Shown here: one piece after another, positions 1-18,851 of the stretch
Position numbering within the stretch: position 1 is the stretch's first letter
Layout of the letters: the number at the start of each line of letters is the position of its first letter
Origin: Synergistaceae bacterium
GTDB lineage: Bacteria; Synergistota; Synergistia; Synergistales; Aminobacteriaceae
DNA length: 64,000 bases
Assembly: GCA_017540085.1 (NCBI GenBank)
Contig: JAFYBQ010000021.1
Coordinates: 1 to 64,000, forward strand
Direction: 5' to 3'
The notes under the pieces: model-generated
Databases searched by the model: none
Seen by the model: the letters and a program-made list of their open reading frames with translations, nothing else
What the model was told of the DNA's origin: nothing
Position numbers and translations under genes: made by a program

Positions 1-174
1 CCCCCCCTTGCAGGTTCACCCCCTGTATATCTCCGCGAAAATCACCCCCCTAAATCCCCCCTTGGCAGGGGGGACAAGACTCGCCGGGGATTCTCGCCTC
101 CCCTGCGTAAGGGGAGGTGCCTGAAAGGCGGAGGGGTCGCTGACGGAGGGGGCGCGGAGGGGTCAGTGGCCGTC
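1..174. repeat. C/G-rich REP-like intergenic repeat
   Basis: A non-coding stretch made of short inverted repeats. A 6-base C run at 56-61 pairs with a 6-base G run at 68-73. CCTCCCC at 97-103 pairs perfectly with GGGGAGG at 111-117. Degenerate 'ggagggg' units continue to about 165. Composition is unlike the neighbouring genes. It resembles dispersed palindromic elements found between genes in many bacteria. It lies just past the 3' end of the minus-strand gene that follows, so part may serve as a transcription end. Whether it recurs elsewhere in the genome cannot be seen here. Confidence 0.5.
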
Positions 175-3100
175 TTACTTCCTCGCGCCTAAGTACCCGG
201 CAATCTCAATACATACGGCTTTTGCCTCGTCAATATCCTCATCCCTGATATACTCCGGGTGAGCGTGGAATATAGGATCTCTCACCCATTGCAGTTTGGC
301 GAATTTCTCCTTCCAGTATGATGAGTAGGGTTTACCGCCGAAATACGCCCCGAAACATTCGTTCCAGTACTGACGCATTACAGCTCCGAGCGCGTTTATC
401 GGCAACACATCGAGGAGTCCTGCGTCAGGGTTGTACTTTCGCTTTGTCTTCTCAAGTGAGTTCATATATTCCTCAGTCGCCAGCATGGGATTTGCCTTCT
501 TGAGTGCGTCATCAAGATTTTCCGGGACGGTGTTCAGTATCCGCGATAATTCGTCCTTCATTAGGCGGACTATCATTTTCTGAACGCTCAGAATCCGCAG
601 GATTTCAGGCGACAATTTCACTTCCGCGTCAAGTATCAGCGTATCGCCCTTGTTGTAGCCGTCAAGTTTCTTCTTGAACGCCGCGAGAATTTCAGCGTCT
701 GCATTTTCCTGCGAGTAGACTCCAGCGTCAAGCCCTAATTCAGACAGAAGACTCCCAGAATATTCGAGATTGTGCAGCAGGGCTTTCAGTGTCGGCAAAA
801 TTATATCTGCCTCCGTAACGTATGCCAGCGTCAGGAGTCCCTCAAAGAATTTCCCGAAGTCGTTAAACTCCAAGAGGCTGCACCCTGAGAGTGAGACATT
901 CTGCGCCGACCATTTCCCGGAAGAGCTGTGAAAGCGCAGGCCGTTCACGAAATACGAATATATATATATCCTCAGCCAAGCGTTGTTCTCATCAATCTTC
1001 CGCGACTCCTGAATCTCGTCAGCAATTTTCAGCAGGCAATATCTCCGGGCGGTGTCATAATTCGACTCGTCCTTCTTTGCGCCGTCAAGCTGTGAGTAAA
1101 GCAGGTATTCCAGCCCCTTGTAGGCCATAATCCTGATATTGTCCTCCTCGGAGGCGGGGTACTGCTTTTTGTCGTCCTCGTCGGCGAGCATGAAGAAGCT
1201 ATAGACGTAACGCGCCATGATAAAACATCTCTCGGCCCTCTCTGCGTTGGTCATGGCAGTGTCATCGCTGTTGAAGCTGCTTACCATTGCGAGATAGTTG
1301 GCTCTGACTTCCCGGAAATGCCCCGCGCTGTAATGAGTGTCGCTTAGGTAGGGAGTGCCGTATTTGCCATTCATATTTGTGGCAAGAATTTTCCCCTGAA
1401 GGAATTTCGGAAGCTCCCCGAATGTCTCAACCTTCACGGGCTTTCGTGACTCTTTCGGCTCAGGGTTTCCGTGTGATTTCTGGCCTTTTGTTTCGGGGGT
1501 ATAGGCTTCAAGCGGGACATATCCGCGGGCTACAAGCTCTTCAATTTCCTCGCTGACATCCGCAGGGAGATCCGGGAGTTTTTCGGCCTCTGTTTTCTCT
1601 TCAGGGTGAAGGATATTGAGCCGCTCTCTTGCCTTCTGAATCATGCCGGAATTTTCCCATGCCTTTAGTTTTTCTTCAGGGAATGGGACTGCCGACTCGA
1701 CGTTCTGAATCTGTATCTTCCCGCTGTCGTTCATGCTCTTTGTGAATCTTACGGGATGCCCTTCCGCTGACGGCTCAACCTCAAGAAACACGGCTAATAC
1801 CGGGTCAATGATATTTTTCTCGTTGAAGGTGTAAAGCGTGCTGTCCTTTGCGCGGACTTTCCCGAAAGGCGGATCATTGTAGCGCATGAAGAAATCTATC
1901 TCGCCTTCCTCCGACAATGCCGACATGACATCAACAGACAATGCCGCGGGCGATTCTGTCTTCTCCTTTACGTCATACGCCGCGGGGCCTTCTATGTTGT
2001 TGCCGAGCCTGAATGTTACGCGGATCATCGGCTTCATTTTTCCGCAGGTCAGCAATTTCCGCCTCAGTGCGCGGTCCTCTATCTGATTCAGGTGAATGAA
2101 CACGGAGCCTTCAGACCTTAACGGGACATTATATTTCTTGAGGATTGGACATTTGATGAACCCGTACAATTTATCCCTGTTAGGGTTGAAGTAGTCAAAA
2201 TCTCCCTCGAACCTTTGAGTCTGCCAGTCGATGCTCCTGAATTTTTCCGGCTCAGTCTTCACGGCCATGTTAGCTTTGTCCGACAGTCTCACAGCGTCAT
2301 CAATGATTTTTGTGTCTGACGGCTGGGACTCTAGCCATTCTTTTAGCGCGTCAATATTTGCCTGTGAGTGAAGCGCGGACTTCTCCGGGAAATTCTCCGG
2401 GGAATATCCCAATAATTTCCACGCGGCAGAGCATACGCACCTGAAGCAAAGCTCCCTGTGATCCTCCGGGTAGTCGTAATTCGTAACGGCACTGGTAATT
2501 ATCCACCGTAACAGCGCATTGACCTGCGGCGGCTCAAGTTTGAGGATGACGGAAAAATTACGGGGTGTAATCGGCTCGCTGACTATGAGACATGCCGCGG
2601 CTAACATTCTTGAAGCTGCTGATGTTGACGCGGTGAAGGCCGCCCGGAAATCGTGAATGTTCATGTAAGTTTTCACGCTCCGTGCGTTTTCGCCCATCAG
2701 GTAAAGAACAAAGCCGTAAATCTCAGAAGCCGCCGTGTTAGTCTGATTCGACCGCCACAAATTTTTTGCCTCGTCAAGAATCTGGCGCATTCTCATGGAG
2801 TATGGCCTATCCTCGTGGACTCTCACCGCGTAATCGTATTTCGTCAGAATGCTTTCTAGTGTGGACTGTATTTTGTCCATGCGGTCTTTGCGGAATTTGC
2901 GAACATAGTCGGTATTGAGTATGTAGCTGTCTGATTTAGCGTCAAGATCATCATAGCATTCTTCAAGCTCATCTGTGAATGAGGGCGTAATATTTTCGGG
3001 CTGTGCGGGAGCTTGTGCGGGAGGCTGTGCGGGGATTGGGACTGACGGAGCTACAGACGGCGGGGCATAGGCTACAGCGGGTGCGGTAAATGAAGCGGGC

Positions 3101-3303
3101 AATGAAGGTAACATCGGCTGCTCCGCAAGAGGGTTAATTCCCCATACAATCGGGTAAACGTAAATAGCCTCGCCGGAGGGACTGCCAAGAGTGAAAAAAT
3201 CATCCTCGCACCTGAGAATTACGCCGGAGGTTTTCCGTCCGTCCGGCATCATCATAATCTCAACATTACGCCCAAGAAACTGCTGAATAATATTACGGTT
3301 CAA
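175..3303 (-). CDS. Large unknown protein: Sm-like N-terminus, cold-shock-like core, HEPN-like C-terminus
   Basis: A protein of 1042 residues that I do not recognise as a named family. Residues 1-60 look like an Sm/Hfq-type barrel (QQFLGRNVEIMMMPDGRK, then GVILRCEDDFFTLGS). A Pro/Ala-rich linker covers about 62-102. A helical region follows. Residues about 366-447 read like a cold-shock/OB domain (FDYFNPNRDKLYGFI, then GSVFIHLNQI), and 466-522 may be a second, degenerate copy. The C-terminal part is helical and ends in RDPIFH (R1008 to H1013), an R-x4-H motif followed by an acidic helix, as in Swt1-type HEPN domains. HEPN domains are often RNases, so an RNA-binding or RNA-cleaving role is inferred. 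It starts 20 bases after purL and is probably co-transcribed with it. No signal peptide or membrane segment was seen. Confidence 0.75.
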   Translation of the reverse strand: MNRNIIQQFLGRNVEIMMMPDGRKTSGVILRCEDDFFTLGSPSGEAIYVYPIVWGINPLAEQPMLPSLPASFTAPAVAYAPPSVAPSVPIPAQPPAQAPAQPENITPSFTDELEECYDDLDAKSDSYILNTDYVRKFRKDRMDKIQSTLESILTKYDYAVRVHEDRPYSMRMRQILDEAKNLWRSNQTNTAASEIYGFVLYLMGENARSVKTYMNIHDFRAAFTASTSAASRMLAAACLIVSEPITPRNFSVILKLEPPQVNALLRWIITSAVTNYDYPEDHRELCFRCVCSAAWKLLGYSPENFPEKSALHSQANIDALKEWLESQPSDTKIIDDAVRLSDKANMAVKTEPEKFRSIDWQTQRFEGDFDYFNPNRDKLYGFIKCPILKKYNVPLRSEGSVFIHLNQIEDRALRRKLLTCGKMKPMIRVTFRLGNNIEGPAAYDVKEKTESPAALSVDVMSALSEEGEIDFFMRYNDPPFGKVRAKDSTLYTFNEKNIIDPVLAVFLEVEPSAEGHPVRFTKSMNDSGKIQIQNVESAVPFPEEKLKAWENSGMIQKARERLNILHPEEKTEAEKLPDLPADVSEEIEELVARGYVPLEAYTPETKGQKSHGNPEPKESRKPVKVETFGELPKFLQGKILATNMNGKYGTPYLSDTHYSAGHFREVRANYLAMVSSFNSDDTAMTNAERAERCFIMARYVYSFFMLADEDDKKQYPASEEDNIRIMAYKGLEYLLYSQLDGAKKDESNYDTARRYCLLKIADEIQESRKIDENNAWLRIYIYSYFVNGLRFHSSSGKWSAQNVSLSGCSLLEFNDFGKFFEGLLTLAYVTEADIILPTLKALLHNLEYSGSLLSELGLDAGVYSQENADAEILAAFKKKLDGYNKGDTLILDAEVKLSPEILRILSVQKMIVRLMKDELSRILNTVPENLDDALKKANPMLATEEYMNSLEKTKRKYNPDAGLLDVLPINALGAVMRQYWNECFGAYFGGKPYSSYWKEKFAKLQWVRDPIFHAHPEYIRDEDIDEAKAVCIEIAGYLGARK

Positions 3304-3323
3304 AAACTAACAACCCCTTTTTA

Positions 3324-6300
3324 CTAGAATTTACTGAAATAATAACAGGCCGCCTCAAAAAACTTCATGCTGAAATTTCCCGGAACGTTCCTGTAAAGAT
3401 TTTTCCCGGCGCGTTCAACATGCCCCATTCTGCCGATAATGCGTCCGTCCGGGGATGTTATACATTCTACAGCAAAACGCGAACCAGAGGGATTATTTTC
3501 TGTGAGCATTGACGGATTTCCGCAGAAGTCGCAGTACTGCCCCGCAATCTGTCCGCCCGTCATAAGCCGCGTAAAGTCCGCCTCATCACACAAGAATCTC
3601 CCTTCACCGTGTGAAATCGGGATTGAGTAAACCTCGCCGGGGTTCGTGAATCTCATCCACGGAGAATTATTGCAGACGACTACGGAGCGTATTATTCTCG
3701 ACTGATGCCGCCCGATTCGGTTGAACGTGAGAGTCGCGGAAAGCTCGCCGGGATTCATGAATTTCCCGTGCGGTAAAAGCCCGGTCTTGATTAGTGCCTG
3801 GAAGCCGTTGCAGATTCCGCAGATTAACCCGCCCCGGTCATCAATGAGATTTTCCACAGCACTGCGGACTTCAGGACTACGCAGAAATATCGCGATGAAT
3901 TTCCCGCTTCCGTCAGGCTCGTCCCCGTTCGAGAATCCTCCCGGAATAATCAGCCCCTGCGACTGTCTCAATGCCTGCGCGAATCTTTCGGCGGACTCCC
4001 TCATTATGTCAGGCGTAAGAGACCTCACTATGAATATTTCGGCTTTCCCCCCGGCCATGTTCACGGCTCGCGCTGTCTCGTACTCGCAATTAGTCCCGGT
4101 AAAGACAGGTATCAGGAATTTCGGCGACTGAATCGGAGGCAGGGTATATTCAGCCCGTTTGATGTCAGCAGAAATGCTTACGGCGGGAATTTCGGCGGGT
4201 TCGTCTGTCTTTGACGGGAAAATTTCAGCCAGCGGGGAGTCATATATAGACTCGGCATAAGACAGCGGGATTCTTTCTCCGTCAGCCATAATAATATCAG
4301 GCTCATCAATAACGCGCCCGACAACGGGATAATTCACGGGCGAGTCTTCAGCAATTTCAATCACAAAAACACCGCGCCCGGACTCCGGGACATTCCCCGA
4401 AAACGTGAAGCCGAGATTATTTCCCAGACACATGCGGAATATCTCTGCCTCGATTCCGCCGTTTGACACGAGAGAACACGCCAATATTTTCCCCAGCTCA
4501 TTCATTGCTTCAATATCGGCAAAAATTCTCAGCATTGAGTCTCTCACCGGAAGCCCCCGCGAATCATATTCAGGCCGGAGAATTATAACCTTTGACCCAG
4601 CCCGCTTGAACTCAGGAGAGATTACCCGGCTGACATTTGCGACAGAGACCGCGAACGCAATCAATGACGGCGGAACATCATATCTCACTCCGTCAGCCCC
4701 CGTGAAAGTCCCGCTCATAGAGTCCTTTCCCCCTATCGCGCCGACTCCGTAATCTATCTGAGCTTTCAATGCTCCCAATAACGCCTCAAACGGCAATGCC
4801 CACCGCGCCGGGTCATTCTCAGGCTTCCCGAAATATTCCTGCAATGACAGCCAGCAATGAGACAGACTCCCCCCTGCCGCAACAATCCTGCATAACGCCT
4901 CAAGCACCGCAGTATATGCCCCGTCAAAAGGATTCATATACGGGTCAAAGCCGTATGACATAAGCGAGCATGTATCAGTCTCACGCATGGCAGGGATTTT
5001 CGCGCACATGGCCGAGGCCGGAGTCTTCTGATATTTCCCCCCGAACGGCATTAATACCGTGTTCCCGCCGACAGTGGAGTCGAATCTCTCTGACAGTCCG
5101 CGCTGTGAGCAGTTGTTGAGATCTGCGAGGCAGTCCGGGAATTTTGCGGGTGAAATTTTCTCGGCTGACTTTGGACTCACCTTCACCGAAATATGCCGGG
5201 CGGCTCCGTTCGTGTCAATGAACGAGCGCGATATGTTGACGATTTCACGTCCGCGCCAAGTCATTCGCATACGGCCTGAGTCATTCACGGTTGCTATTGC
5301 TGTGGCTTCTGCGTCCTCAGACAGTGCGAGAGCCTTCACGCGTTCGACATTCTCCGGGGAAATTACGACTGCCATACGCTCTTGGGACTCGCTTACTGCT
5401 ATTTCCGTTCCGTCAAGCCCGGAATACTTCAGCGGAACAGCGTCAAGATTTATGTCGAGACCGTCAGCCAATTCACCGACAGCGACACTAACCCCGCCCG
5501 CGCCGAAATCGTTACAACGTTTCACGAGCCGGGTAAATTCGGGATTCCTGAAGAGACGCTGTAATTTGCGTTCTTCCGGGGCGTTGCCTTTCTGGACTTC
5601 CGCGCCGCATGTCCCGATTGAGTCGGCTGTGTGTGAGACTGATGAGCCTGTCGCGCCTCCGATACCGTCCCGGCCTGTTCTGCCTCCGAGAAGTAATACA
5701 ATGTCGCCCGGCTTGGGACTCTCGCGGATAACGTCAGACTCTTTCACCGCCGCTATGACCGCTCCGACCTCAAGACGTTTTGCCCTGAAGCCCTCGTGAT
5801 ATATTTCGCGGACGATCCCTGTAGGCAGGCCGATTTGATTTCCGTATGAACTGTAACCCTGCGCGGCCTTTGTGATGATTGTCCTTTGCGGTAATTTTCC
5901 GGGCATGGGTGATTCGTATGGATTTCCTGCCCCTGTGATTCTCATGGCCTGATAGACATATGCGCGCCCTGAAAGCGGGTCTCTTATCGCTCCTCCGATA
6001 CAAGTCGCAGCACCTCCGAAAGGCTCGATCTCTGTCGGGTGATTGTGGGTCTCATTCTTGAACAGCAAGAGCCATGACTCTCCGTCAACGTCAATTCTCA
6101 CGGTGCAGGCGTTATTTTCCCCGCTGTCGTGAATGTCATTGAGGAGTCCTTTTGACCGCAGATATTTCGCGCCGATTGTGGCAATGTCCATGAGGGTAAC
6201 GGGCTTTCCTTCCGGGTAATGAAGCTCCCTGCGTATGTCCGTGTACAATGCGTAAGCGTCCCTCACAGCGTCATCATGAATTTCCGCGCCGTCAATGTGA

Positions 6301-6944
6301 GTCGTGAATGTAGTGTGCCGGCAATGGTCAGACCAGTATGTATCAAGCACCTTAATTTCTGCCCTAGTCGGCTTGCGTCCCTCGTCATCAAAATATTTCT
6401 TTACGCAGGCTAAATCTTCCCGGCTCATCGCGAGTCCTTCAAGCGTCATAACATCGTCAACCGTCATAACGTCATCGGGAACGGGATAATCAGCGGTGAG
6501 GGATTCATATTCGGCTAATTGTGCCTCTCTTGCCTCGACGGGGTTAATCAGGTGTTTCTTCACGGCCATGAAGTCAGAGATTTCGCCGTAGAACAGGTAG
6601 ATTTTTGCGGTGCGTATCATCGGCCTGAAACCGAGAAGGAGGCCGGCGCACTGCATAGCGGAGTCGGCTCTCTGATCGTACTGTCCCGGAAGAAATTCGA
6701 CAGCAAGAATATGATCCGCGTCATTCGGGATTTCGGTCAATATGTTGTCGGTGAAAGGCTCTGCGAAAATTGAGTCCCTGCACGTAATGAGCTGTGAGTC
6801 TGTGAGTCCCTGAATATCGTAGCGGTTGAGGATACGTATATTTCTGACGGACTCGGAGCCTTTGAGGGTTCGTATTTCTGCGAGGAGTGATAATGCTTCG
6901 GGGTTGTGGGAGTCTTTACGCTCCGTGAAAATTCTGTGTACCAA
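3324..6944 (-). CDS. purL: Phosphoribosylformylglycinamidine synthase, single-chain
   Basis: Cytosolic enzyme of purine synthesis that converts FGAR, glutamine and ATP to FGAM. At 1206 residues it carries synthetase and glutaminase on one chain. The synthetase half has the DTYWSDHCRHTTF and FKNETHNHPTEIEPFGGA motifs. The C-terminal class I amidotransferase begins near residue 960. It shows GICNGFQ with the nucleophile at about Cys1045 and SHGEGRF with the His at about 1112. The length and sequence fit the clostridial-type long form. The start is TTG, with GGAGG at 6952-6956 and a 7-base spacer. The ATG a few bases upstream is out of frame. The unknown Sm/HEPN gene follows directly. I saw no purine riboswitch core in the 270 bases upstream. 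Confidence 0.96.
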   Translation of the reverse strand: MVHRIFTERKDSHNPEALSLLAEIRTLKGSESVRNIRILNRYDIQGLTDSQLITCRDSIFAEPFTDNILTEIPNDADHILAVEFLPGQYDQRADSAMQCAGLLLGFRPMIRTAKIYLFYGEISDFMAVKKHLINPVEAREAQLAEYESLTADYPVPDDVMTVDDVMTLEGLAMSREDLACVKKYFDDEGRKPTRAEIKVLDTYWSDHCRHTTFTTHIDGAEIHDDAVRDAYALYTDIRRELHYPEGKPVTLMDIATIGAKYLRSKGLLNDIHDSGENNACTVRIDVDGESWLLLFKNETHNHPTEIEPFGGAATCIGGAIRDPLSGRAYVYQAMRITGAGNPYESPMPGKLPQRTIITKAAQGYSSYGNQIGLPTGIVREIYHEGFRAKRLEVGAVIAAVKESDVIRESPKPGDIVLLLGGRTGRDGIGGATGSSVSHTADSIGTCGAEVQKGNAPEERKLQRLFRNPEFTRLVKRCNDFGAGGVSVAVGELADGLDINLDAVPLKYSGLDGTEIAVSESQERMAVVISPENVERVKALALSEDAEATAIATVNDSGRMRMTWRGREIVNISRSFIDTNGAARHISVKVSPKSAEKISPAKFPDCLADLNNCSQRGLSERFDSTVGGNTVLMPFGGKYQKTPASAMCAKIPAMRETDTCSLMSYGFDPYMNPFDGAYTAVLEALCRIVAAGGSLSHCWLSLQEYFGKPENDPARWALPFEALLGALKAQIDYGVGAIGGKDSMSGTFTGADGVRYDVPPSLIAFAVSVANVSRVISPEFKRAGSKVIILRPEYDSRGLPVRDSMLRIFADIEAMNELGKILACSLVSNGGIEAEIFRMCLGNNLGFTFSGNVPESGRGVFVIEIAEDSPVNYPVVGRVIDEPDIIMADGERIPLSYAESIYDSPLAEIFPSKTDEPAEIPAVSISADIKRAEYTLPPIQSPKFLIPVFTGTNCEYETARAVNMAGGKAEIFIVRSLTPDIMRESAERFAQALRQSQGLIIPGGFSNGDEPDGSGKFIAIFLRSPEVRSAVENLIDDRGGLICGICNGFQALIKTGLLPHGKFMNPGELSATLTFNRIGRHQSRIIRSVVVCNNSPWMRFTNPGEVYSIPISHGEGRFLCDEADFTRLMTGGQIAGQYCDFCGNPSMLTENNPSGSRFAVECITSPDGRIIGRMGHVERAGKNLYRNVPGNFSMKFFEAACYYFSKF

Positions 6945-7048
6945 GATGATACCTCCATGCGGAATTTTGGGATAAGTTTAGCATGAGGGGATTATTTCGT
7001 AATATATCAGGAATGAAATTTTGAGGGCGGGAAAATTTATCTTTGGAC

Positions 7049-7080
7049 AAAAAAATTACCGTCATAAAATCTTAACGGTT
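7049..7080 (-). terminator. Weak intrinsic terminator
   Basis: On the minus strand, ACCGT pairs with ACGGT around an 11-base loop and is followed by AA and seven T. It lies downstream of the 54-residue membrane protein gene and could separate it from purL. The stem is only five base pairs, so this is a tentative call. Confidence 0.3.
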
Positions 7081-7219
7081 TAGCATGAAAAAATTGCGTA
7101 ATGACTGTGGCACCTACGAAAAAATACCGGGTCAGTAACGGACATTCCCGGCGGAAACTAATCTTTCCCGGGAAAACTCCGAGAATGATTAACGGATAAA
7201 GTATTTCTGCGTTCAGGCA

Positions 7220-7384
7220 CTAGAAAAACAGCGATATGGCGTATACGGCTGTGATGACTGCGCCTGCTGCGTAGGCAAAAAGTTTGTACGTTTTCATGGC
7301 GCGTGCGTAATCGGCCTCAGTTGCTTTTGTGGCTGTAGCTTTGGCTTTCATTTGCGCGTCATAATCGTACGAATTCCTTTTCAT
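7220..7384 (-). CDS. Small single-span membrane protein, 54 aa
   Basis: A short open frame of 54 codons. It starts MKRNSYDYDAQMKAKA and ends in one hydrophobic helix (about residues 36-54, LFAYAAGAVITAVYAISLFF) that reaches the C-terminus. AAGGGA lies about 10 bases upstream of the ATG. The N-terminal half is charged and Ala/Lys-rich and probably cytosolic, giving a tail-anchored layout. It stands alone between purL (same strand) and sbcD (divergent). No family was recognised. The start, Shine-Dalgarno match and coherent hydrophobicity support a real gene, but there is no homology evidence. Confidence 0.5.
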   Translation of the reverse strand: MKRNSYDYDAQMKAKATATKATEADYARAMKTYKLFAYAAGAVITAVYAISLFF

Positions 7385-7536
7385 GATACACGATTCCCTT
7401 CTGTGAGAATATTATTGACTTGTGGAAATTTATAGGATGAGTAAATTTTACCAAAAACACGCGGCAAATCAAGAAAAAATTTTGTCATTAATGTATCATT
7501 ATCAGTAAAAGACGCAGAAAAAAGGACGTGAAATTT

Positions 7537-8751
7537 TTGCGGATACTTCACACATCAGACTGGCACATAGGCAAAAAGCTGAAGGAGCATGACCGCGCAG
7601 ACGAGTTCAGGAAGTTTTTTGCGTGGCTTGAGGACGTTGTTGACCGAGAGAAGCCCGACGCGATTATAGTAGCCGGGGATGTTTTCGACAGCCGCAACCC
7701 GTCAGCCGAGTCGCAGGAAATGTACTATTCATTTTTCGGGAAGATCGCCGGGGGTGAAAGGTCGTGCCGGAACGCCGTAATCATCTCAGGGAATCACGAC
7801 TCCCCCGCGCTGATTGACGCTCCCGCCGGGGTAATGGGACGCTGCAATATTCACGTTATTGGCCGCTCGCGTGAGGACGAAATTATTACCCTCACAGACT
7901 CAGACGGAAAGCCGGAAATGATAGTGTGCGCTGTTCCGTTTCTGCATGACAGCGAACTAAGGACAGCGAACGCCGGGGACACATTCGACATTACCCGAAA
8001 GATTCAGGAGGGCATAAAGAATCATTACGCGGAAATTTTCGCCCGTGCGCGTGAAATCCGCGGGGATTATGACATTCCGATAGTGGCGGCGGGTCATCTG
8101 TTTCTTGAGGCGGGGAAAACCCGAACCGATGAGGGCGAGCGGTCTATGTATCTTGGGACGGCGGTAAAGGTCGGTACGGACATTTTCCCGGATGATATTG
8201 CGTATATTGCGCTGGGACATCTCCATTCACCGCAGGCAGTCGGGCGGGCGAATATACGCTACAGCGGGTCGCCGATTGCGCTTACGTTCGGGGAATGGGG
8301 AGTCCCGAAAACTGTCAGCATTATTGACTTTGACGGGCGGAATTTTGCGGGAGTCCGTGAGATTGAGATTCCCATGTGGCAGAAGATGAAGCGAATCTCC
8401 GGGGACATGGCGAAAATTGAGGCAGACCTGCGCGGATTAATGTCGCTGAATGAGTCAGTGTGGGCGGAAGTTACGTACACAGGCGACACACAGCCGGGCG
8501 ATATTCAGCAGGAGCTTGAAGAGATCGTGAAGGAGTCAGCGGTTGAAGTCATAAGCATTATCGACAAGGGGGAATATATTTCGGTGAATGATGACGGTTT
8601 CGGCGGGAAAACGCTAGATGACATTGACCCGGTGAAAATGCTCCGGCGGAAAATGGACAGCATGAAAATCCCGGAGGAGAAACGCACGAAAATGGAGGAG
8701 CTTTACGGGGAAATACTGCGGGAAATATCAGCGGAGGAAAAATTATCATGA
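7537..8751 (+). CDS. sbcD: Exonuclease SbcCD, nuclease subunit D
   Basis: Mn-dependent phosphoesterase subunit of the SbcCD (Mre11-like) nuclease that opens DNA hairpins and processes double-strand ends. The N-terminus carries the calcineurin-type motifs HTSDWHIG, GDVFD, ISGNHD and GHLH. I prefer the TTG at 7537, which gives MRILHTSDWHIG as in the E. coli protein and leaves a 10-base spacer after AAGGA (7522-7526). The in-frame GTG at 7528 would sit one base from that Shine-Dalgarno. The stop overlaps the sbcC start, so the pair is translationally coupled. About 404 residues, the usual length. Confidence 0.94.
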   Translation: MRILHTSDWHIGKKLKEHDRADEFRKFFAWLEDVVDREKPDAIIVAGDVFDSRNPSAESQEMYYSFFGKIAGGERSCRNAVIISGNHDSPALIDAPAGVMGRCNIHVIGRSREDEIITLTDSDGKPEMIVCAVPFLHDSELRTANAGDTFDITRKIQEGIKNHYAEIFARAREIRGDYDIPIVAAGHLFLEAGKTRTDEGERSMYLGTAVKVGTDIFPDDIAYIALGHLHSPQAVGRANIRYSGSPIALTFGEWGVPKTVSIIDFDGRNFAGVREIEIPMWQKMKRISGDMAKIEADLRGLMSLNESVWAEVTYTGDTQPGDIQQELEEIVKESAVEVISIIDKGEYISVNDDGFGGKTLDDIDPVKMLRRKMDSMKIPEEKRTKMEELYGEILREISAEEKLS

Positions 8752-11459
8752 AGATATTATCCATAACGTTAAATAATCTCAACTCACTGCGCGGGACGTG
8801 GAATATAAATCTTGAGGATAAAGCGTACACTTCCGGCGGTATATTCGCTGTAACAGGGCCGACAGGAGCGGGAAAGACTACTATATTTGACGCTGTATGC
8901 CTTGCGCTTTACAGGAGGACTCCGAGACTCCCGCATGTAACATCAGGCGAGAACGAAATAATGTCAAAGCACACTAATTCATGCGGGGCAAAAGTGAAAT
9001 TTGAGTCCGGCGGGAAAATTTACGTCTGCGAATGGAGTCAGAGACGAACGGGGAAAACATTTCAGGCGACTCATACTATATCACTTGACGGAAAGCCGCT
9101 GACGGATTCGCAGAAACAGAAAGACACATCAGCCCGCGTGAAAGAAATAACCGGGATGGATTTTGACAGGTTCGTGCAGGCAGTGCTTCTTGAGCAGGGA
9201 GGCTTTGACAGATTCCTTAACGCAAAGAAAAACGAGCGGGCAGAAGTCTTAGAGCTTATCACAGGAACAGGGATATACAGCGAAATTTCAAGCAGGGTAT
9301 ATCGGCGCAGCAAGGACAAACGCACGGAGCTTGACGGAAAACGCAAAGAACTTGAGTCAGAGAAATCACGCTTTGAGGGAATGACGCAGGAAAGTTTGCA
9401 GGCAGAAATTTCACGTATGAATGACGAAATTTTACGGGCTGAGGCCGGGCACAAGTCAACCGGGGAAATATTGACATGGCAGCGCGAAATCATGAAGCTG
9501 AACAATGACATGGCCGGAGTCCGCAGAGATATAGCCATTCACGCACAGGAGTCAGCAAACTTTGAGGCCGGGCGCGTGCTTCTTGAGTCGGCGGAACGTG
9601 CGGTGAGTCTCGGCGGTGAATATGAAGCTCTGCGGGCAAAGCGTGAGGCGGTGAAAAGGGCTGAGGGTGATATTTCTGCATTGTCGGCGAAAATCTCATC
9701 ACAGGAGTCGGAATGCTCGAAAATTTCGGCGGGGCTTCCCGGAATGAATGATGAGCTGTCGCGCCTCAGAGGGGAAATTTCCGGGTCTTCTGAGGCTGTC
9801 GTCAAAGAGATTGAAGCGGCTGTGAAGGATTATGAGCGTCAGAAAAATAATCTTGGGGAGGCAGAACGGGAAATATCACGGCTCGGCCATGTGTGCAGGA
9901 CAGCAAAAGACAATCTCGAACGCATAGAGGCCAGCGGGAAAAAATTACTGGCGGAAAAAAACAGGCTTGACGAAAGGCGCAGGACTCTTCATGAACAGTT
10001 CATGAGCATGGACGCAAAGACACGCGAGGCAGTTCTTGACGAGGAACGCGCAAAACTTCAGCCCGATGTCCCCTGCCCCCTTTGCGGCTCAACGTCTCAC
10101 CCCGGAATCGCTCATACATCTTCAGGCGGTGAAAATCCTGATGACATGTTCGCGGCAAAAGCCAAACTCAATGAGGATTGCAAAAAGGCGGAGGAGGCTG
10201 TGAATGTCGCGGATAAAAAATTGCAGGACGAGCGCGACAGATGGCAGGAGGCACACGATGAAAAAATTTCGGCCTTCAATGAATATTCACGTCTTGTTGA
10301 AGAGGCAGCAAAGTGCAAAACGAAACTTTCTGAGGCAAAATCAGCATTGACCGACTCAATCCGCCCTGCGGGAATCACATGGGACGATGACACACGGAAA
10401 ATGATGACGCAGGCGCGGGAATGGTCAGCGAAAATTGACGGCCTCGAAAAACGCATACAGTCATCACAGCAGGATTTGAGTCAAATACAGGCCGTAATAC
10501 TTTCCGGGCGTGAATCTCTTGACGCGAAACGCCGGGAGCTTGAGACTTTTTCGGCGGAGCTTGGCGGACTCGAATCGTCATTCGCGGAAAAGCTCAGGCA
10601 GAAGAATTTTGACGGTGAAGAATCTTTCCTGCGGGCGCGGAGTCGTTCAGGTGAAATTGAGTCTCTCCGCAGGAAACGCGATGAGCTGTCAGCAAAAACG
10701 GCCATGCTTGACGGGGCATTGATGAGCATACAGAAACAGCTTGACGAACAATCAGCACGGAACCTCACATCAGAGTCTCCCGAAAAAATAGAGGAATTAT
10801 ACAGACTGGAAGACTCCAGCCTCAAAAAACTTCATCAGGAAATCGGCATACTGACTCAGAGACTGAAGAACGTAACAGACAGTGCCGCGAAAGTGAAAGC
10901 ACTTGAGGCCGAATATGACGATCTCAAAGCCAAGTGCGATGACTGGGACATGCTGAACGATCTCATAGGCTCGGCGGAGGGCGACAAGTTCCGGGTTTAC
11001 GCGCAGAAAGTAACGCTATCCCTTGTCGTGAACAACGCCAACGAGTATTTACGCAAAATGAACGGACGCTACACGCTGATACAGACTCCCGGAAGCGATG
11101 AGCTTGAACTCAGCGTGAAGGACAGCGAGCAGGCCGGGACAGTCAGAACAACCGAAAACTTGTCCGGCGGGGAAAAATTCATCATCAGCCTTGCATTAGC
11201 CCTCGGACTTTCTCAGATTTCAGGCAGCAGGGCGCAGGTTGACTCGCTTTTCATTGATGAGGGATTCGGCTCTCTTGACGAGGAAGCATTAAGCTCCGCG
11301 CTTGACGCTCTCGGAGAAATTCGCCGCGAGGGAAGAATGATAGGCATAATCTCTCACATCTCAGGCATAAGCGAACGTATCACCGCAAAGATTAACGTGA
11401 TACGCAAATCAGAAGGCACAAGCATGATCATCGGGCCGGGCTGCTCCGGGTCAATGTAG
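8748..11459 (+). CDS. sbcC: Exonuclease SbcCD, SMC-like ATPase subunit C
   Basis: Rad50-type ATPase partner of SbcD. Walker A is GPTGAGKTT near residue 37. Two long coiled-coil arms flank a zinc hook, C443-P-L-C446, which dimerises the arms. The C-terminal lobe has the ABC signature LSGGEKF and Walker B SLFIDEGFG. At 903 residues it is within the normal range. The ATG overlaps the sbcD stop (ATGA). The tRNA-Pro gene follows after about 60 bases with its own promoter, so the operon probably holds only these two genes. Confidence 0.95.
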   Translation: MKILSITLNNLNSLRGTWNINLEDKAYTSGGIFAVTGPTGAGKTTIFDAVCLALYRRTPRLPHVTSGENEIMSKHTNSCGAKVKFESGGKIYVCEWSQRRTGKTFQATHTISLDGKPLTDSQKQKDTSARVKEITGMDFDRFVQAVLLEQGGFDRFLNAKKNERAEVLELITGTGIYSEISSRVYRRSKDKRTELDGKRKELESEKSRFEGMTQESLQAEISRMNDEILRAEAGHKSTGEILTWQREIMKLNNDMAGVRRDIAIHAQESANFEAGRVLLESAERAVSLGGEYEALRAKREAVKRAEGDISALSAKISSQESECSKISAGLPGMNDELSRLRGEISGSSEAVVKEIEAAVKDYERQKNNLGEAEREISRLGHVCRTAKDNLERIEASGKKLLAEKNRLDERRRTLHEQFMSMDAKTREAVLDEERAKLQPDVPCPLCGSTSHPGIAHTSSGGENPDDMFAAKAKLNEDCKKAEEAVNVADKKLQDERDRWQEAHDEKISAFNEYSRLVEEAAKCKTKLSEAKSALTDSIRPAGITWDDDTRKMMTQAREWSAKIDGLEKRIQSSQQDLSQIQAVILSGRESLDAKRRELETFSAELGGLESSFAEKLRQKNFDGEESFLRARSRSGEIESLRRKRDELSAKTAMLDGALMSIQKQLDEQSARNLTSESPEKIEELYRLEDSSLKKLHQEIGILTQRLKNVTDSAAKVKALEAEYDDLKAKCDDWDMLNDLIGSAEGDKFRVYAQKVTLSLVVNNANEYLRKMNGRYTLIQTPGSDELELSVKDSEQAGTVRTTENLSGGEKFIISLALALGLSQISGSRAQVDSLFIDEGFGSLDEEALSSALDALGEIRREGRMIGIISHISGISERITAKINVIRKSEGTSMIIGPGCSGSM

Positions 11460-11475
11460 GCGCAGGGCTTGAGGT

Positions 11476-11504
11476 TTGACGGGATAATTTGCGCGTGGTA
11501 GAAT
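11476..11504 (+). promoter_or_regulatory. Sigma-70-type promoter of tRNA-Pro
   Basis: A -35 box TTGACG (11476-11481) and a -10 box TAGAAT (11499-11504) are separated by exactly 17 bases. The expected transcription start lies 6-8 bases beyond the -10 box, shortly before the mature tRNA 5' end at 11520. Confidence 0.75.
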
Positions 11505-11519
11505 GCTCGCTGTGATTTA

Positions 11520-11597
<78 letters not shown>

Positions 11598-11603
11598 GCG
11601 GCA

Positions 11604-11640
11604 AAAATCGGGATTCCTTCAGGGGAGTCCCGATTTTTTT
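11604..11640 (+). terminator. Intrinsic terminator of tRNA-Pro
   Basis: AATCGGGATTCC pairs with GGAGTCCCGATT (one G-T wobble) around a short loop and is followed by a run of T. A strong rho-independent terminator placed 10 bases after the tRNA. Confidence 0.88.
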
Positions 11641-11706
11641 TGTGCTGAAATTTTCCCTATGATTTACGTGATAGAATGTGAAAAATTGAAAGGTGGCATT
11701 TTACTT

Positions 11707-12593
11707 ATGCTTGAATCTTCATTCACACCGCTGAAGCCGATTCCGTCATCTGCTGATTTTTACAGGTACTTTTTCAGCCAGTACAGTTTTATTAAGGCAA
11801 ATGACCTCTGTATGCGTTACGCTGTTGAAGTTATCCCTAAAGAAGAAAAATTGCGGGCTGTTCACGCTGTAGTTCACATGAACGGCGAAGAGAATGAAGA
11901 AAATTCGGTGTTCCTTAAAGGTATGGGCGTATGTATTCCATATTTGGAGGAGCTGAAAAAAGAAGACCGCGGATTTTCTCAGGATCTTCTCAATTTTTCT
12001 GCCGACTGTCTCAGGAAGAAAGAGACCCGCTTGACTGGTTTTTGCTGACGAATGAATTTCTGATGGTTTATGCCGTGTGCGAGCGGGCAATAATTCACTT
12101 CATTTCCGACACAGAACAGACAGCGGAAAATAACGGCGGATTTATCAAAGAGAAACAAATACTGTCAATACTTTCGCAAATACTCAGCGGGCGGGGTACT
12201 CTTAAGACCTATGTAAAAATTGTAACGCGCACAACAGGGGGCATTTTTGCGTCTATGGAAGATATTAATGCCGTCTGGCTCTACTATACTTTGCTGCGAC
12301 ACTGCATAGCACACAGCGCGGGAATATGGGATCAGAAATTTCATGACAGCATGAAAAATAACACGGATAGCCGCCTGAAAAATGTCGAAAAAAGGCTCGC
12401 TATGCATCCCATTTACACGGGTACATATGACATTGATGATAATCCTTTTTTCAGAAATTATAAGGTCGGTAGTGTAATCGAAATTTCAGAGACACAGCTA
12501 AATTTCTTCCGCAACACTGTGCTGAGAGTCATAGAAGGATTAGAGAAACTCGGAAGGCAAGCCCCCCGGCCATGTGTTAAGCAGGGGGGATAA
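11707..12593 (+). pseudogene. HEPN-like domain gene, frameshifted
   Basis: One gene read in two frames. The first frame runs from the ATG at 11707 (AGGTGG at 11691-11696, -10-like TAGAAT at 11672-11677) to a stop at 12048. Coherent coding then continues one frame back (QEERDPLDWFLLTNEFLM) to 12593. Restoring one base near the TTTTT run at about 11993-11998 joins them into about 295 residues. The second part has LLRHCIAHSAG, an R-x4-H motif as in HEPN domains. The last residues fall inside a C/G-rich palindrome. No slippery heptamer is in frame at the switch, so programmed frameshifting is not favoured. A sequencing error or a real mutation are both possible. Function unknown, perhaps an RNase-type protein. 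Confidence 0.55.
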
Positions 12594-14947: not shown

Positions 14948-15806
14948 CTACTTTGCGGGCTTGAGGTGATAGAACGTATCGAACTGGTAATAAGGCTCAG
15001 AGAGTATTACGCCGTTCGGGACATCGTACTTTGTGCCTCTTCCGCGCTTGTGCTCGAACCAGAAGACAACATCAGACCGCCCGGAACTGAGCATAGCGGC
15101 TCTTGCGCTGGACTCGATGTTCTGAAGCCTGACATTGATTCCGAGTCTGCCTGCGATTTCGGCGAGTATTGCGGCGTTGAAGCCGTTTGCTGAACCGTCC
15201 GGGGCAATGTAGTCTATCGGGGGCATGTCTCCTGTTACAGCGGCGTTGATTGTGGGCGCACCGTCAAAATTCCTGAACATCACCGGGCCGACTTCCTGCA
15301 AGTCGGGGTTGGTGATGTGCCTTTCCTCCATCACTGCTGTGTCTGTGCCGAGTATGTATTTCCCCTGAAGGGTTATGAGAGTCCCGTCGCGCTTCATTTC
15401 GGTGATTGCCTTGTCGAACGACTCGCACAATGCCTTGTTGTTCTCAAAGAATCCGAACGACAGCAAAAACGGATCTTTGGGAGTCATCACAATACAGTTG
15501 ATTGTGTAGCCGTGGTTGGCGTTCATGAAATACTCGGCGACAGATTCGGGCATGAGGATTTCGTCAATCTCTCCGGCGTTGAGAGCCATAATCATCTGTG
15601 TGATTGACCTGTAGAAGAAAAATTCAGGCATGGCCGGGTTGTTAGCCATCATTACGACATGGCCGGCATTGGCGATAATATTGCGGAACTCTTTCGGGGT
15701 AACATTGAGGCGTTCAATCATTCCGACACGGTGCGAGGCTTCAGCCGAGAACACAGCCGGAGCGAAAGCGAGAATCATAACTAGGGCGCATAAAACTTTT
15801 TTCATG
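14948..15806 (-). CDS. Exported amino-acid-type binding protein, halves permuted (copy 1)
   Basis: Solute-binding protein of about 285 residues with signal peptide MKKVLCALVMILAF...VFSA. Start ATG 15806, with AAGGAGG at 15813-15819. The first half (VGMIERLNVTPKEF, then ALNAGEIDEILMPESVAEYF, then EMKRDGTLITLQGKYI) matches the part that comes last in HisJ-type proteins. The second half (AAVTGDMPPIDYI, GFNAAILAEIAGRL, SGRSDVVFW, GVILSEPYY) matches the part that comes first. The fold is therefore expected to be whole but circularly permuted. Last of four tandem paralogs, 15 bases after the next copy. Ligand unknown. Confidence 0.85.
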
Positions 15807-15821
15807 AAAACAATTCCTCCT

Positions 15822-16685
15822 TCAATCTTCGTCAAATCTCAAATGAATAAACGTGTTCCATTCGAGATAGGGTTCAGAGAGTATTATACTTTCAGGGACA
15901 TCAAGATACTTGTCGGTCATTTTGCTGACTTCATACCAGAAAACGACATCGGTCTTCCCTGAGACAATAGCGGCAGTCCGTGCGCCCGTCTCAACCTGAA
16001 TCACATTGATGTTTACACGGAGCCGCCTCCCGATTTCCGCAAGAACGGCCATGCTGTAGCCCGCTGGGAGTCCCATGTCATCAACAAAATCAACAGGCGG
16101 AAGATCCCCCGTAACAGCAACTTTCACCGTTTGCGCGTCCGGGAAGCTGTCGAATGTTATGCGGTTCTGCCTGCGTCTTTGCTTGGGTGTGATTCCGTAA
16201 ATGGCATCATAAGTTTCATCGGGCGGGAAATTTTTGACGTACTTCTGAAACAGCCCGGAAAGCGTGTAATCATTCCTCATTGAGACTAAAGCGGCGTTCC
16301 ATCTGTCGCGGAGGTGAACGCGGTCTTTCATGAAGCCGAAACAAAGACTCATCTGCCCGGAGTTTGAGATACAGCAGGGTGTATAGCTTTTGTTGACCTT
16401 CATGAGGTACTCGGCGACGAAATCGGGCAATATCATTTCTTCAATGTCCCCGCGTGAAAGTGCCATCTGCATTTGGGACAGTGAGTCGTAGAACCGGGCT
16501 TTGCTTGTTGTGTGATCATCGCCGAGAATCGCCCAGCCCTTTGCGGCCCAAGAGTTACGCATGAGCATGAAGAACTCATCCGGGGAAGATTGCAGGCGTG
16601 TCAGCAGTCCGACATAATCATCATCAGCATACGAGATTCCGCCCAGCATGGCCGAAATCATGAGAATACACAGAAATTTTTTCAC
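15822..16685 (-). CDS. Exported amino-acid-type binding protein, halves permuted (copy 2)
   Basis: 287 residues, GTG start at 16685 with AAAAGGAG about 8 bases upstream and a signal peptide. Same swapped order as its neighbours: SLSQMQMALSRGDIEEMILPDFVAEY (key part ALSRGDIEEMILP) in the first half, and VAVTGDLPPVDFV, AVLAEIGRRL and ESIILSEPYLEW in the second. It is more divergent than the other copies in the middle (KQRRRQNRITF). It lies directly downstream of the methyltransferase remnant, so its original promoter or read-through may have been altered by that insertion. Confidence 0.85.
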   Translation of the reverse strand: MKKFLCILMISAMLGGISYADDDYVGLLTRLQSSPDEFFMLMRNSWAAKGWAILGDDHTTSKARFYDSLSQMQMALSRGDIEEMILPDFVAEYLMKVNKSYTPCCISNSGQMSLCFGFMKDRVHLRDRWNAALVSMRNDYTLSGLFQKYVKNFPPDETYDAIYGITPKQRRRQNRITFDSFPDAQTVKVAVTGDLPPVDFVDDMGLPAGYSMAVLAEIGRRLRVNINVIQVETGARTAAIVSGKTDVVFWYEVSKMTDKYLDVPESIILSEPYLEWNTFIHLRFDED

Positions 16686-16825
16686 GGTATCAGACTCCTT
16701 TTCAGGTATTGAAGGCTCTTATGATACCACGATACTAACGCTTCCCGCAGCTGTGAATGTCTGTCAGTCAGTCGGCCTTCTCTCGTCATTGATGAGGATG
16801 TAATTTGCGGACGCTCCCGCCCTAA

Positions 16826-17053
16826 GTGCCGCTGAGGATTTTCGTGTGGACGTGGTAGCCGAGTCCCTCAAGATGATTCAGATTGTGAGGATTTCACGTT
16901 CCTGATGTCGCCTAACGGAATATCGCGGAAATTAGCGGCGTAAGTCTCACGGGCTGAAGGGTCAATTTCTGACGAGAAAACGCACCCGCACCCGGCATTC
17001 TCGAAAGCGAGACGAATACCGCCGATTCCCGCGAAAGGGTCGGCAAACTTCAT
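16826..17053 (-). pseudogene. Remnant of a C5-cytosine DNA methyltransferase
   Basis: The first 61 codons read MKFADPFAGIGGIRLAFE (motif I, the SAM-binding loop) through LGDIRNV, then stop. A shifted frame about 16826-16880 gives HLEGLGYHVHTKILSG, which matches a segment well past the catalytic Cys motif in Dcm-type enzymes. The catalytic PCQ region, the target-recognition domain and the C-terminus are missing. The ATG abuts the stop of binding-protein copy 3. This is a deletion derivative sitting between two paralogous transporter genes. No partner restriction endonuclease was seen. Confidence 0.75.
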
Positions 17054-17926
17054 TCAGTTGTGTATGTAGAAGTCAAGAAAGTCCCGGCTAAATATGTTCC
17101 AGCTCCATGGATTCCCCCCGGCGGGTCTCTTCCGAAGGTGAATGAATTTCTCCCAGTCGTAATATGTCTCTGACACTATGACCCCTTCAGGTATGTCCGG
17201 CTGAGTCGCGGAGCCTTTCACGACCTCGTACCAGAAAACGACATCCGCACGTCCCGACGCAAGCGCAGCACTCCTAGCAGCCGACTCAATATTCAGCAGC
17301 TCAATGTTCACGCCGAGACGCTTCCCGATTTCCGCAAGCACCGCAGTGCTGAACCCGGCAGGCTCTCCCGCGTCATTCATGTAGTCGACAGGCGGCAAAT
17401 CTCCCGTTACAGCCGCACGGATTGTCCCGGCTCCGTCAAATTTCGCGAACTCGACAGCTTTCGGGGGATTCTTTCCGGCTGAGGACAGGTACATTCCTTC
17501 AAGTGCTGAGAGCGTCCAATCCCCGCGCATTTCTGTTATTGCCCGGCTGAATTTCTCGCATAATTCTTTGTTGTCGGCTCGGAAACCGAATGCCAGTCCC
17601 ATCCCCTTTGAGCGCAATACTAATACTGACTCATATTCGGGACTCTGATTCATGAGATACTCGGCTGTTGCTTCGGGTAATACTATGTGCTTTATTTCCC
17701 CGGCGTTCAGTCCCATCTGCATGGCGTTCAAATTCGGGTAGAACTTCACGCGGACTTCTAGCAGCTCATTGTGAGGGGCAAAGGATTTCTGCCATTCCTG
17801 CGAGAATGACTCCTCCGTTGAGTTCAGCTTCTCAAGCATTCCCAGCGATATAACGCGCTTTTCGAGGCCGTACGACGTTCCGCACAGCCCTGCAACAAGC
17901 ACTAACGCAAAAATTAATCTCTTCAC
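17054..17926 (-). CDS. Exported amino-acid-type binding protein, halves permuted (copy 3)
   Basis: 290 residues, GTG start, signal peptide ending near SYGLE. Residues about 24-150 are the canonical C-terminal portion (LGMLEKLNSTEESF, MGLNAGEIKHIVLPEATAEYL, ITEMRGDWTLSALEGMY). Residues about 168-270 are the canonical N-terminal portion (AAVTGDLPPVDYM, AVLAEIGKRLGVNIEL, SGRADVVFWYE, GVIVSETYY). It has a tail of about 20 residues not found in the other copies, beside the methyltransferase remnant. That tail may come from the inserted DNA. Confidence 0.85.
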   Translation of the reverse strand: MKRLIFALVLVAGLCGTSYGLEKRVISLGMLEKLNSTEESFSQEWQKSFAPHNELLEVRVKFYPNLNAMQMGLNAGEIKHIVLPEATAEYLMNQSPEYESVLVLRSKGMGLAFGFRADNKELCEKFSRAITEMRGDWTLSALEGMYLSSAGKNPPKAVEFAKFDGAGTIRAAVTGDLPPVDYMNDAGEPAGFSTAVLAEIGKRLGVNIELLNIESAARSAALASGRADVVFWYEVVKGSATQPDIPEGVIVSETYYDWEKFIHLRKRPAGGNPWSWNIFSRDFLDFYIHN

Positions 17927-17927
17927 G

Positions 17928-18851
17928 TTATTTTGACCTGCCCACGACTAAATCGGTATCCCACTCGTAATAAGGCTCAGAGAGTATTACGCCGCCAGAG
18001 GACGAGTCAACCATTACGCCTTTAAGGTTTTTGCCGAGCTTCTTGGGAGTCTTTATGCCCTCGGTGTTCCTGTACCAGAAAACGACATCCGCCCGGCCTG
18101 ACGCGAGAGCCGCTGACCTTCCGCCCGCCTCAACGCTGATTACACGTATATTGCGCTTGAGCCTCCTGCCGATTTCCGCCAGTATTGCCGTGTTGTAGCC
18201 TGTAGCGCGGCCGTCCGAAGCTATGTAGTCGATAGGGGGAAGGTCTCCTGTTACCGCGACTCTTATCGGCTTTGAGCTTTTGAACTCGGTGAGCTTGACT
18301 TCTTCAGGCTCGTTTGTCCCGATGTTCTTGATGAATTTGTCCTCGATTGTCATTAATGTTCCGTCCTGCTTCATGGCCTTTATTGCGGTGTCAAAATCTT
18401 TCTTGAGTGCGGTGTTTCCTGCCTTGAAGCCGAATGATATTGTTGACGGCATCATGTTCAGCGAGAATTGTATCTCGTAATCTTTCGGGTTAGTGGCGGT
18501 AAGGTACATCACTACAGGCTCAGGCAGGACGATCTCATCAATCTTGCGCGCCTTCAGAGCCATCTGCATTGCCAGCAGTGAGTCGTAGAAGTGGACTACC
18601 CTTCTTGCCCTCACAAGCTCCGACAGGAATCCATCAAGAAGGTCATAATCTTCCCATTCCTGTTTGGCTGACTCCTCCGTGATTAGCGGCGTTAGTGCCT
18701 TCCTCAAGTCGTCTAACGCTTCCTGAAACTCGGCCTCTGTCGTACCCAAGTATGTGAGGATTCCTGAGTCCACCTTGTCAGACTCGGCGGCCATTACAGC
18801 ACCGCACATAATCATCACAGCAACTAGCGCGCATAATATTTTCCTCAACAT
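17928..18851 (-). CDS. Exported amino-acid-type binding protein, halves permuted (copy 4)
   Basis: 307 residues, ATG 18851 with GAGGAG upstream. The signal peptide runs to about residue 22. Residues 26-175 match the normally C-terminal portion of the family (LLAMQMALKARKIDEIVLPE, then FGFKAGNTALKKDFDTAIK and DGTLMTIEDKFI). Residues 195-305 match the normally N-terminal portion (IRVAVTGDLPPIDYI, TGYNTAILAEIGRRL, SGRADVVFWY, GVILSEPYYEWD). First binding protein of the array, nine bases after the GHKL-like gene, so likely the most highly expressed. It carries an extra helical insert at about 45-80. Confidence 0.87.
   Translation of the reverse strand: MLRKILCALVAVMIMCGAVMAAESDKVDSGILTYLGTTEAEFQEALDDLRKALTPLITEESAKQEWEDYDLLDGFLSELVRARRVVHFYDSLLAMQMALKARKIDEIVLPEPVVMYLTATNPKDYEIQFSLNMMPSTISFGFKAGNTALKKDFDTAIKAMKQDGTLMTIEDKFIKNIGTNEPEEVKLTEFKSSKPIRVAVTGDLPPIDYIASDGRATGYNTAILAEIGRRLKRNIRVISVEAGGRSAALASGRADVVFWYRNTEGIKTPKKLGKNLKGVMVDSSSGGVILSEPYYEWDTDLVVGRSK

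Follow-up and report, generated by a model that had tools for sequence, protein, structure and literature searches.

A predicted Sm-like, cold-shock and HEPN domain protein encoded directly after purL in one genus of Synergistota

The gene and its neighbours

The window, i.e., the whole 64,000-nt stretch of DNA analysed here, occupies the beginning of contig C21 (108.8 kb) in an assembly of 2.17 Mb and 42 contigs. The close relatives that bear names are goat-gut and other uncultured Synergistaceae. An earlier note on this DNA had described a 1042-residue reading frame at 175-3303, located 20 bases downstream of purL. Both statements were confirmed: the interval includes the stop codon, the frame runs on the minus strand (which the note did not state), and its start follows the purL stop codon by 20 bp (Table 1). 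The TTG start codon is conserved in 22 of 27 purL-adjacent homologs, and AGGAG-type sites were found at the place equivalent to the ribosome-binding site. The stretch separating the gene from the contig start (window 1-174) has repeat-like sequence rich in CCCCCTT/GGCAGGGGGG; taken alone, these 174 bases contain no internal repeats.

Table 1. Positions of the gene, its predicted protein parts and its upstream neighbour in the window
Feature	Window position	Strand	Remarks
purL, single-chain FGAM synthase, 1206 aa	3324..6944	-	Upstream operon partner; adjacent in 27/27 genomes checked
Ribosome-binding site AAGGGG	3314..3319	-	10 nt 5' of TTG; read from the sequence
ORF, predicted order Sm - helical - CSD - CSD - helical - HEPN	178..3303	-	1042 aa; stop 175-177
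Sm/Hfq-like domain, residues 1-61	3121..3303	-	AF2 helix and five strands (1-60)
Pro/Ala-rich linker, residues 62-108	2980..3120	-	pLDDT mostly below 50
Helical block 1, residues 109-345	2269..2979	-	All helical; AF2 pLDDT about 90
CSD1, canonical cold-shock OB, residues 361-450	1954..2223	-	AF2 strands (five-strand barrel 364-447)
RNP1-like KLYGFI, residues 378-383	2155..2172	-	In CSD1
RNP2-like VFIHL, residues 401-405	2089..2103	-	F402 and H404 invariant
CSD2, degenerate cold-shock OB, residues 462-540	1684..1920	-	Fold without RNP aromatics (five-strand barrel 465-537)
Helical block 2, residues 627-890	634..1425	-	AF2 pLDDT about 60; missing in G049 variant (L027)
HEPN domain, residues 893-1042	178..627	-	Separate AF2 model
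R1008-x4-H1013 catalytic-type motif RDPIFH, then AHPEY	265..282	-	In HEPN domain

Where the downstream flank could be read, the neighbours were a convergent ArsP-type permease gene and a DUF362 gene. In the sampled loci the gene was the last of its operon and had no partner gene. No MNT antitoxin gene adjoins it, its neighbours being purL and the convergent permease. Neither a McrB-like GTPase nor McrC was found by reading window 1-12000 or the listed flank of L035, no known defence genes lie next to the gene, and none of the PADLOC families matched its product. Rfam analysis of window 1-12000 returned only a tRNA, with no match to an AbiF-type ncRNA nearby. In two genomes that lack the gene (G024 and G043) the permease comes directly after purL; in four others (G026, G027, G029, and G042) glycosyl-transfer-like or LicD-like genes, so named by sequence reading, come first. 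Since the slot is empty or carries other genes in some genomes, the content of the site can change.

Farther along the window, a 220-aa ORF (11931-12593) follows a tRNA gene (11520-11595) and contains the R-x4-H stretch LLRHCIAH; it appears HEPN-like by eye and has no Pfam match. Four tandem genes at 14948-18851, near an ABC transporter gene pair, encode similar proteins of about 290-307 aa, each of which ends in a solute-binding-like half (VxAAVTGDLPPxDY...).

Domain anatomy of the protein

To describe the protein we used an AlphaFold2 model of the full chain built on 26 homologs (mean pLDDT 72.8) and a model of the C-terminal domain folded alone with 29 sequences (pLDDT 88.6, pTM 0.81). Sm, CSD, CSD, and HEPN folds were each recovered by prediction and structural alignment, and we regard this anatomy as very probably correct. 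The earlier note had listed an Sm/Hfq-like start, a proline-rich tether, "one or two" cold-shock-like OB regions and a C-terminal HEPN motif. All of these parts held up and the OB regions number two; the note had missed the two helical blocks, which make up about half of the chain.

With the window protein as a single-sequence query, nothing scored above cut-off in Pfam, NCBIfam, PADLOC, or PDB, and no significant match came from PDB sequence searches with profiles or from a fold search of a viral library. Pfam scores of single members for HEPN and CSD fall below the curated cut-offs. Over the homologs the profile matches are weak but consistent: Pfam CSD (PF00313) is matched by 15 of 26 members (best 1.1e-4), the RimP-C SH3/Sm-like family (DUF150_C) by 4 of 26 (best 3.8e-7), and HEPN_Swt1 (PF18731) by 3 of 26.

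The N-terminal domain aligned to Hfq and other Sm barrels over 54-61 aa (VIA-align Z about 9 to 9.8). Archaeal Hfq (2qtx) and the C-terminal domain of RimP (5gl6) have the same Sm-like fold as residues 1-60, with rmsd of 1.1-1.6. Unlike Hfq, the domain is fused N-terminally to a 1000-aa chain, and the Hfq Pfam model (PF17209) does not recognise it, finding no match in the genome even though the window gene is there; the typical RNA-contact residues of Hfq are not evident. The linker that follows is almost unconstrained (mean identity 24%, no invariant columns). Invariant columns number 41 of 237 in helical block 1 and 72 of 264 in helical block 2. Block 2 was considered as a second HEPN domain and rejected, as profile comparison with the HEPN domain gave no match (probability 1.5%).

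CSD1 (residues 363-448) aligned to Bacillus caldolyticus Csp with a VIA Z of 9.1 and 28% identity. Its KLYGFI and VFIHL segments correspond to the CSD motifs RNP1 (KGFGFI) and RNP2 (VFVHF); KLYGFI is kept in 24 of 26 rows, with Y or F in the third place, and the two divergent rows read K-L-x-G-x-I. VFIHL, too, is retained in almost every homolog. CSD2 (464-539) aligned to CspB over 66 aa (VIA Z 9.5, rmsd 2.1). When the whole model was searched with Foldseek, the sole match with an E-value below 0.001 was to Drosophila Unr, at its CSD1-CSD2 pair (E 3.7e-4). Unr/CSDE1 (6y6m, 7zhr) likewise has a canonical CSD followed by a degenerate one; it differs in being eukaryotic, in having multiple CSD pairs and in carrying no Sm or HEPN domain.

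Searched with Foldseek alone, the HEPN domain had no significant match; the best E-value was 1.1, and Swt1 ranked fifth. After VIA re-alignment, nearly all of the first sixteen matches were HEPN proteins (Z 6.4-8.7). The closest was AbiF (8vz6, Z 8.7), followed among others by the HepT toxin fold (Z 7.8) and yeast Swt1 (4pqz, Z 7.1); HI0074, MntA-HepT, other HEPN-MNT toxins, and Csm6 were also among the top matches. HEPN_Swt1 is matched below its cut-off (14 to 22 bits vs. a gathering score of 27.5) by the window domain at E 0.016 and by other members at 1.7e-4 to 3.5e-4 per genome, and the most divergent member matches the Apea and RiboL-PSP HEPN models. R1008 and H1013, the pair pointed out in the earlier note, are invariant in 26 of 26 full rows and 29 of 29 HEPN rows, including sequences only 25-38% identical, and the motif is therefore not a chance occurrence. 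Of the two outcomes that would have contradicted the earlier note, models lacking these folds and a loss of R1008 and H1013 among homologs, neither was seen. We concluded that the predicted HEPN fold is well supported and that its putative active-site motif is under constraint. The protein is probably a catalytic RNase, judging from these conserved residues.

Distribution, purL linkage and relatives

The family is confined to one genus of gut and rumen Synergistota, in which 31 of 43 genomes carry a member. It is absent from 145 Synergistota genomes of other genera. A search of 392 relatives over 259 genera gave matches only in the same 31 genomes (0 of 349 outside the genus), and no relatives came up in phages, plasmids, or IMG/VR viral contigs. 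In every one of the 27 genomes that allowed a check, the long form follows purL immediately and in the same orientation. The gap measures 15-29 bp in 19 genomes and 50-61 bp in another five, so that 24 of the 27 start 15-61 bp after purL; the remaining three have gaps of 92, 157, and 445 bp. Protein distances within the family track PurL distances (Mantel r 0.83, 0 of 5000 permutations). Mapped on the PurL tree, presence of the family takes five changes, compared with about 10-12 on average after shuffling, a pattern that would fit an early arrival followed by several losses. The dN/dS ratio of about 0.1 for the whole chain, with low values in every domain, indicates strong purifying selection.

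Throughout the genus, PurL itself is of the large single-chain type, with about 1206 aa. In genomes G001, G007, and G010, from other genera of the bacterial family, the matches to purL were limited to separate fragments with about 30% identity; the genus may have acquired its PurL from outside.

Several members depart from the common form. One variant (G049) lacks helical block 2 and keeps the Sm, CSD, and HEPN domains, and the HEPN domain of another genome (G057) is split by a frame break close to residue 963, possibly an error in the sequence. A short Sm-CSD-CSD paralog without HEPN occurs at scattered sites in about half of the genomes with the long form. No conserved neighbourhood was seen for it, its neighbours mostly differing between genomes. 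In G056 (L041:3647-5036) restriction endonuclease-like and adenine methylase genes, named by sequence reading, stand directly before the short paralog, and this pair was found beside it in no other genome examined.

Conflict-system features were found only in rearranged relatives of two genomes, G040 and G033. The chain next to purL in G040 has 1683 aa and combines Sm-CSD with TPR-like and STAND/AAA parts; the HEPN domain is encoded by the following gene, where a further AAA/NB-ARC-like NTPase precedes it (L037:2914-9449). This two-gene set looks like an undescribed NTPase-controlled HEPN system. G033 carries two HEPN paralogs away from purL. One (C397) comes after genes for an AAA ATPase and for a protein that carries a glycine zipper at its C-terminus, and the second adjoins a second copy of the glycine-zipper protein. 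At L042:1-3909 the AAA ATPase, the glycine-zipper protein and the CSD-HEPN gene stand in a row, and the other contig is represented by L039:5413-8061. The glycine-zipper ends of the two loci are 96% identical and the HEPN genes only 40% identical, which looks like a repeated or expanding cassette. An AAA and glycine-zipper arrangement was reported as an extension of CoCoNuT systems (PMC11090510), and by analogy the G033 pair may be the same cassette. Together, the relatives with STAND/AAA NTPases and with the AAA/glycine-zipper pair suggest an origin in a conflict system.

Proposed function and rival readings

Fusions of HEPN and cold-shock domains are already known. In 2013, HEPN-STAND proteins of bacteria were noted to carry CSD-like OB folds at the C-terminus, Bacillus cereus gi 229028907 being an example (Anantharaman et al., 2013; PMC3710099). 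The window protein shares HEPN and cold-shock OB parts with them, and in the G040 relative a STAND/AAA NTPase is present too; the window protein itself has no NTPase, and it has a C-terminal HEPN domain, central CSDs and an Sm domain, unlike that system. CoCoNuT Type IV restriction systems also combine HEPN RNases with CSD OB folds (PMC11090510), but the window locus has no McrB/McrC, coiled coils or helicase, and its sole operon partner is purL. The best structural and Pfam neighbours are in the Swt1-like/Abi2-AbiF HEPN family (PF18731; 4pqz, 8vz6), with which the protein shares the HEPN fold and R-x4-H; it stays below the Pfam cut-off and has neither the PIN domain of Swt1 nor, as far as found, an adjacent ncRNA like that of AbiF. 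No report of the Sm-CSD-CSD-HEPN order or of purL coupling was found in the literature searched, which lay mostly outside subscription journals.

We consider it somewhat probable that the protein is an RNA-binding HEPN endoribonuclease of the Swt1/AbiF-like branch, restricted to the genus and resident as the last gene of the purL unit, which controls the cell's own RNA. Its nearly constant place as the last gene after purL makes it look like a resident RNA-control enzyme and not a mobile toxin. RNA capture followed by cleavage, which the earlier note had read from the order of the domains, is plausible on the predicted folds. The Sm-like domain would oligomerise and/or hold RNA as Hfq does, possibly as a ring, and CSD1 with the non-canonical CSD2 could grip single-stranded RNA in the manner of the Unr CSD pairs. 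The helical blocks may serve as a scaffold or regulatory arm. Two HEPN domains would pair to form a metal-independent R-x4-H site, at which the held RNA would be cut. The observed place directly after purL, if it reflects co-transcription, would tie the protein level to purine demand, which makes control of the cell's own RNA the likely role; for example, translation could be slowed or mRNAs remodelled when purines run short. Descent from a conflict-type HEPN system that turned into a resident gene is probable. Whether the protein controls cellular RNA or serves in defence we judge to be evenly balanced. Its patchy loss within the genus, the different cargo found in the slot and the NTPase-fused relatives would also fit defence.

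The main rival is that the protein acts as a chromosomal anti-phage abortive-infection effector, its CSDs and Sm domain sensing foreign or aberrant RNA and its HEPN RNase stopping translation. HEPN domains are mostly conflict effectors (PMC3710099), the HEPN-STAND proteins with CSD-like OB folds described above among the reported cases, and AbiF is the closest structural match. The NTPase-fused G040 homolog at the purL site with its AAA-HEPN gene, the G033 paralogs in a CoCoNuT-extension arrangement, and the purL-permease slot that is empty or otherwise filled in other genomes point the same way. The earlier note, too, had held a stress or defence function possible. Defence gained no direct support for the window gene, as there is no PADLOC match, no phage or plasmid copy and no adjoining known defence gene, and strict purL synteny, congruence with PurL and the low dN/dS speak against it; conflict features are present in the G040 and G033 relatives. 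We consider this rival doubtful, and a classic mobile defence or toxin-antitoxin pair is less likely than residency. That the protein is the toxin of such a pair is very improbable: the fold is near to that of HepT toxins, but a 1042-aa multidomain chain is unlike HepT, no partner gene was found, the gene is last in its operon with the convergent permease close by where seen, and no AbiF-type ncRNA match lies nearby.

It is also improbable that the protein is a non-catalytic RNA chaperone or scaffold in which HEPN only dimerises or binds RNA, replacing the Hfq that is missing from the phylum. Hfq (PF17209) was not matched in 188 Synergistota genomes, and the model rings in five control genomes; the own genome encodes one ordinary cold-shock protein. 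Sm and CSD are chaperone folds, the short paralog has them without HEPN, and inactive HEPN domains are on record (PMC3710099). The invariance of R1008 and H1013 down to 25% identity is, however, what catalysis predicts, and elsewhere in the phylum Hfq and the window protein are both missing. Since most of the phylum is without both, a role as Hfq replacement is possible only in this genus, and it is speculation there. A bolder form of the resident-enzyme reading, in which a domesticated conflict RNase is a one-chain stand-in for Hfq plus RNase (the Sm ring and CSD pair selecting transcripts, HEPN cutting them, and the dose set via purL), we regard as rather improbable.

HEPN RNases are known chiefly for their roles as toxins and in antiviral defence. 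If the reading of a resident RNA-control enzyme is true, a conflict RNase equipped with Sm and cold-shock RNA-binding parts and kept under strong purifying selection would have been turned to resident RNA control and inherited vertically with a purine biosynthesis gene. With NTPase-fused relatives at the purL site and elsewhere in the genus, such a path from defence to housekeeping would be testable within one genus.
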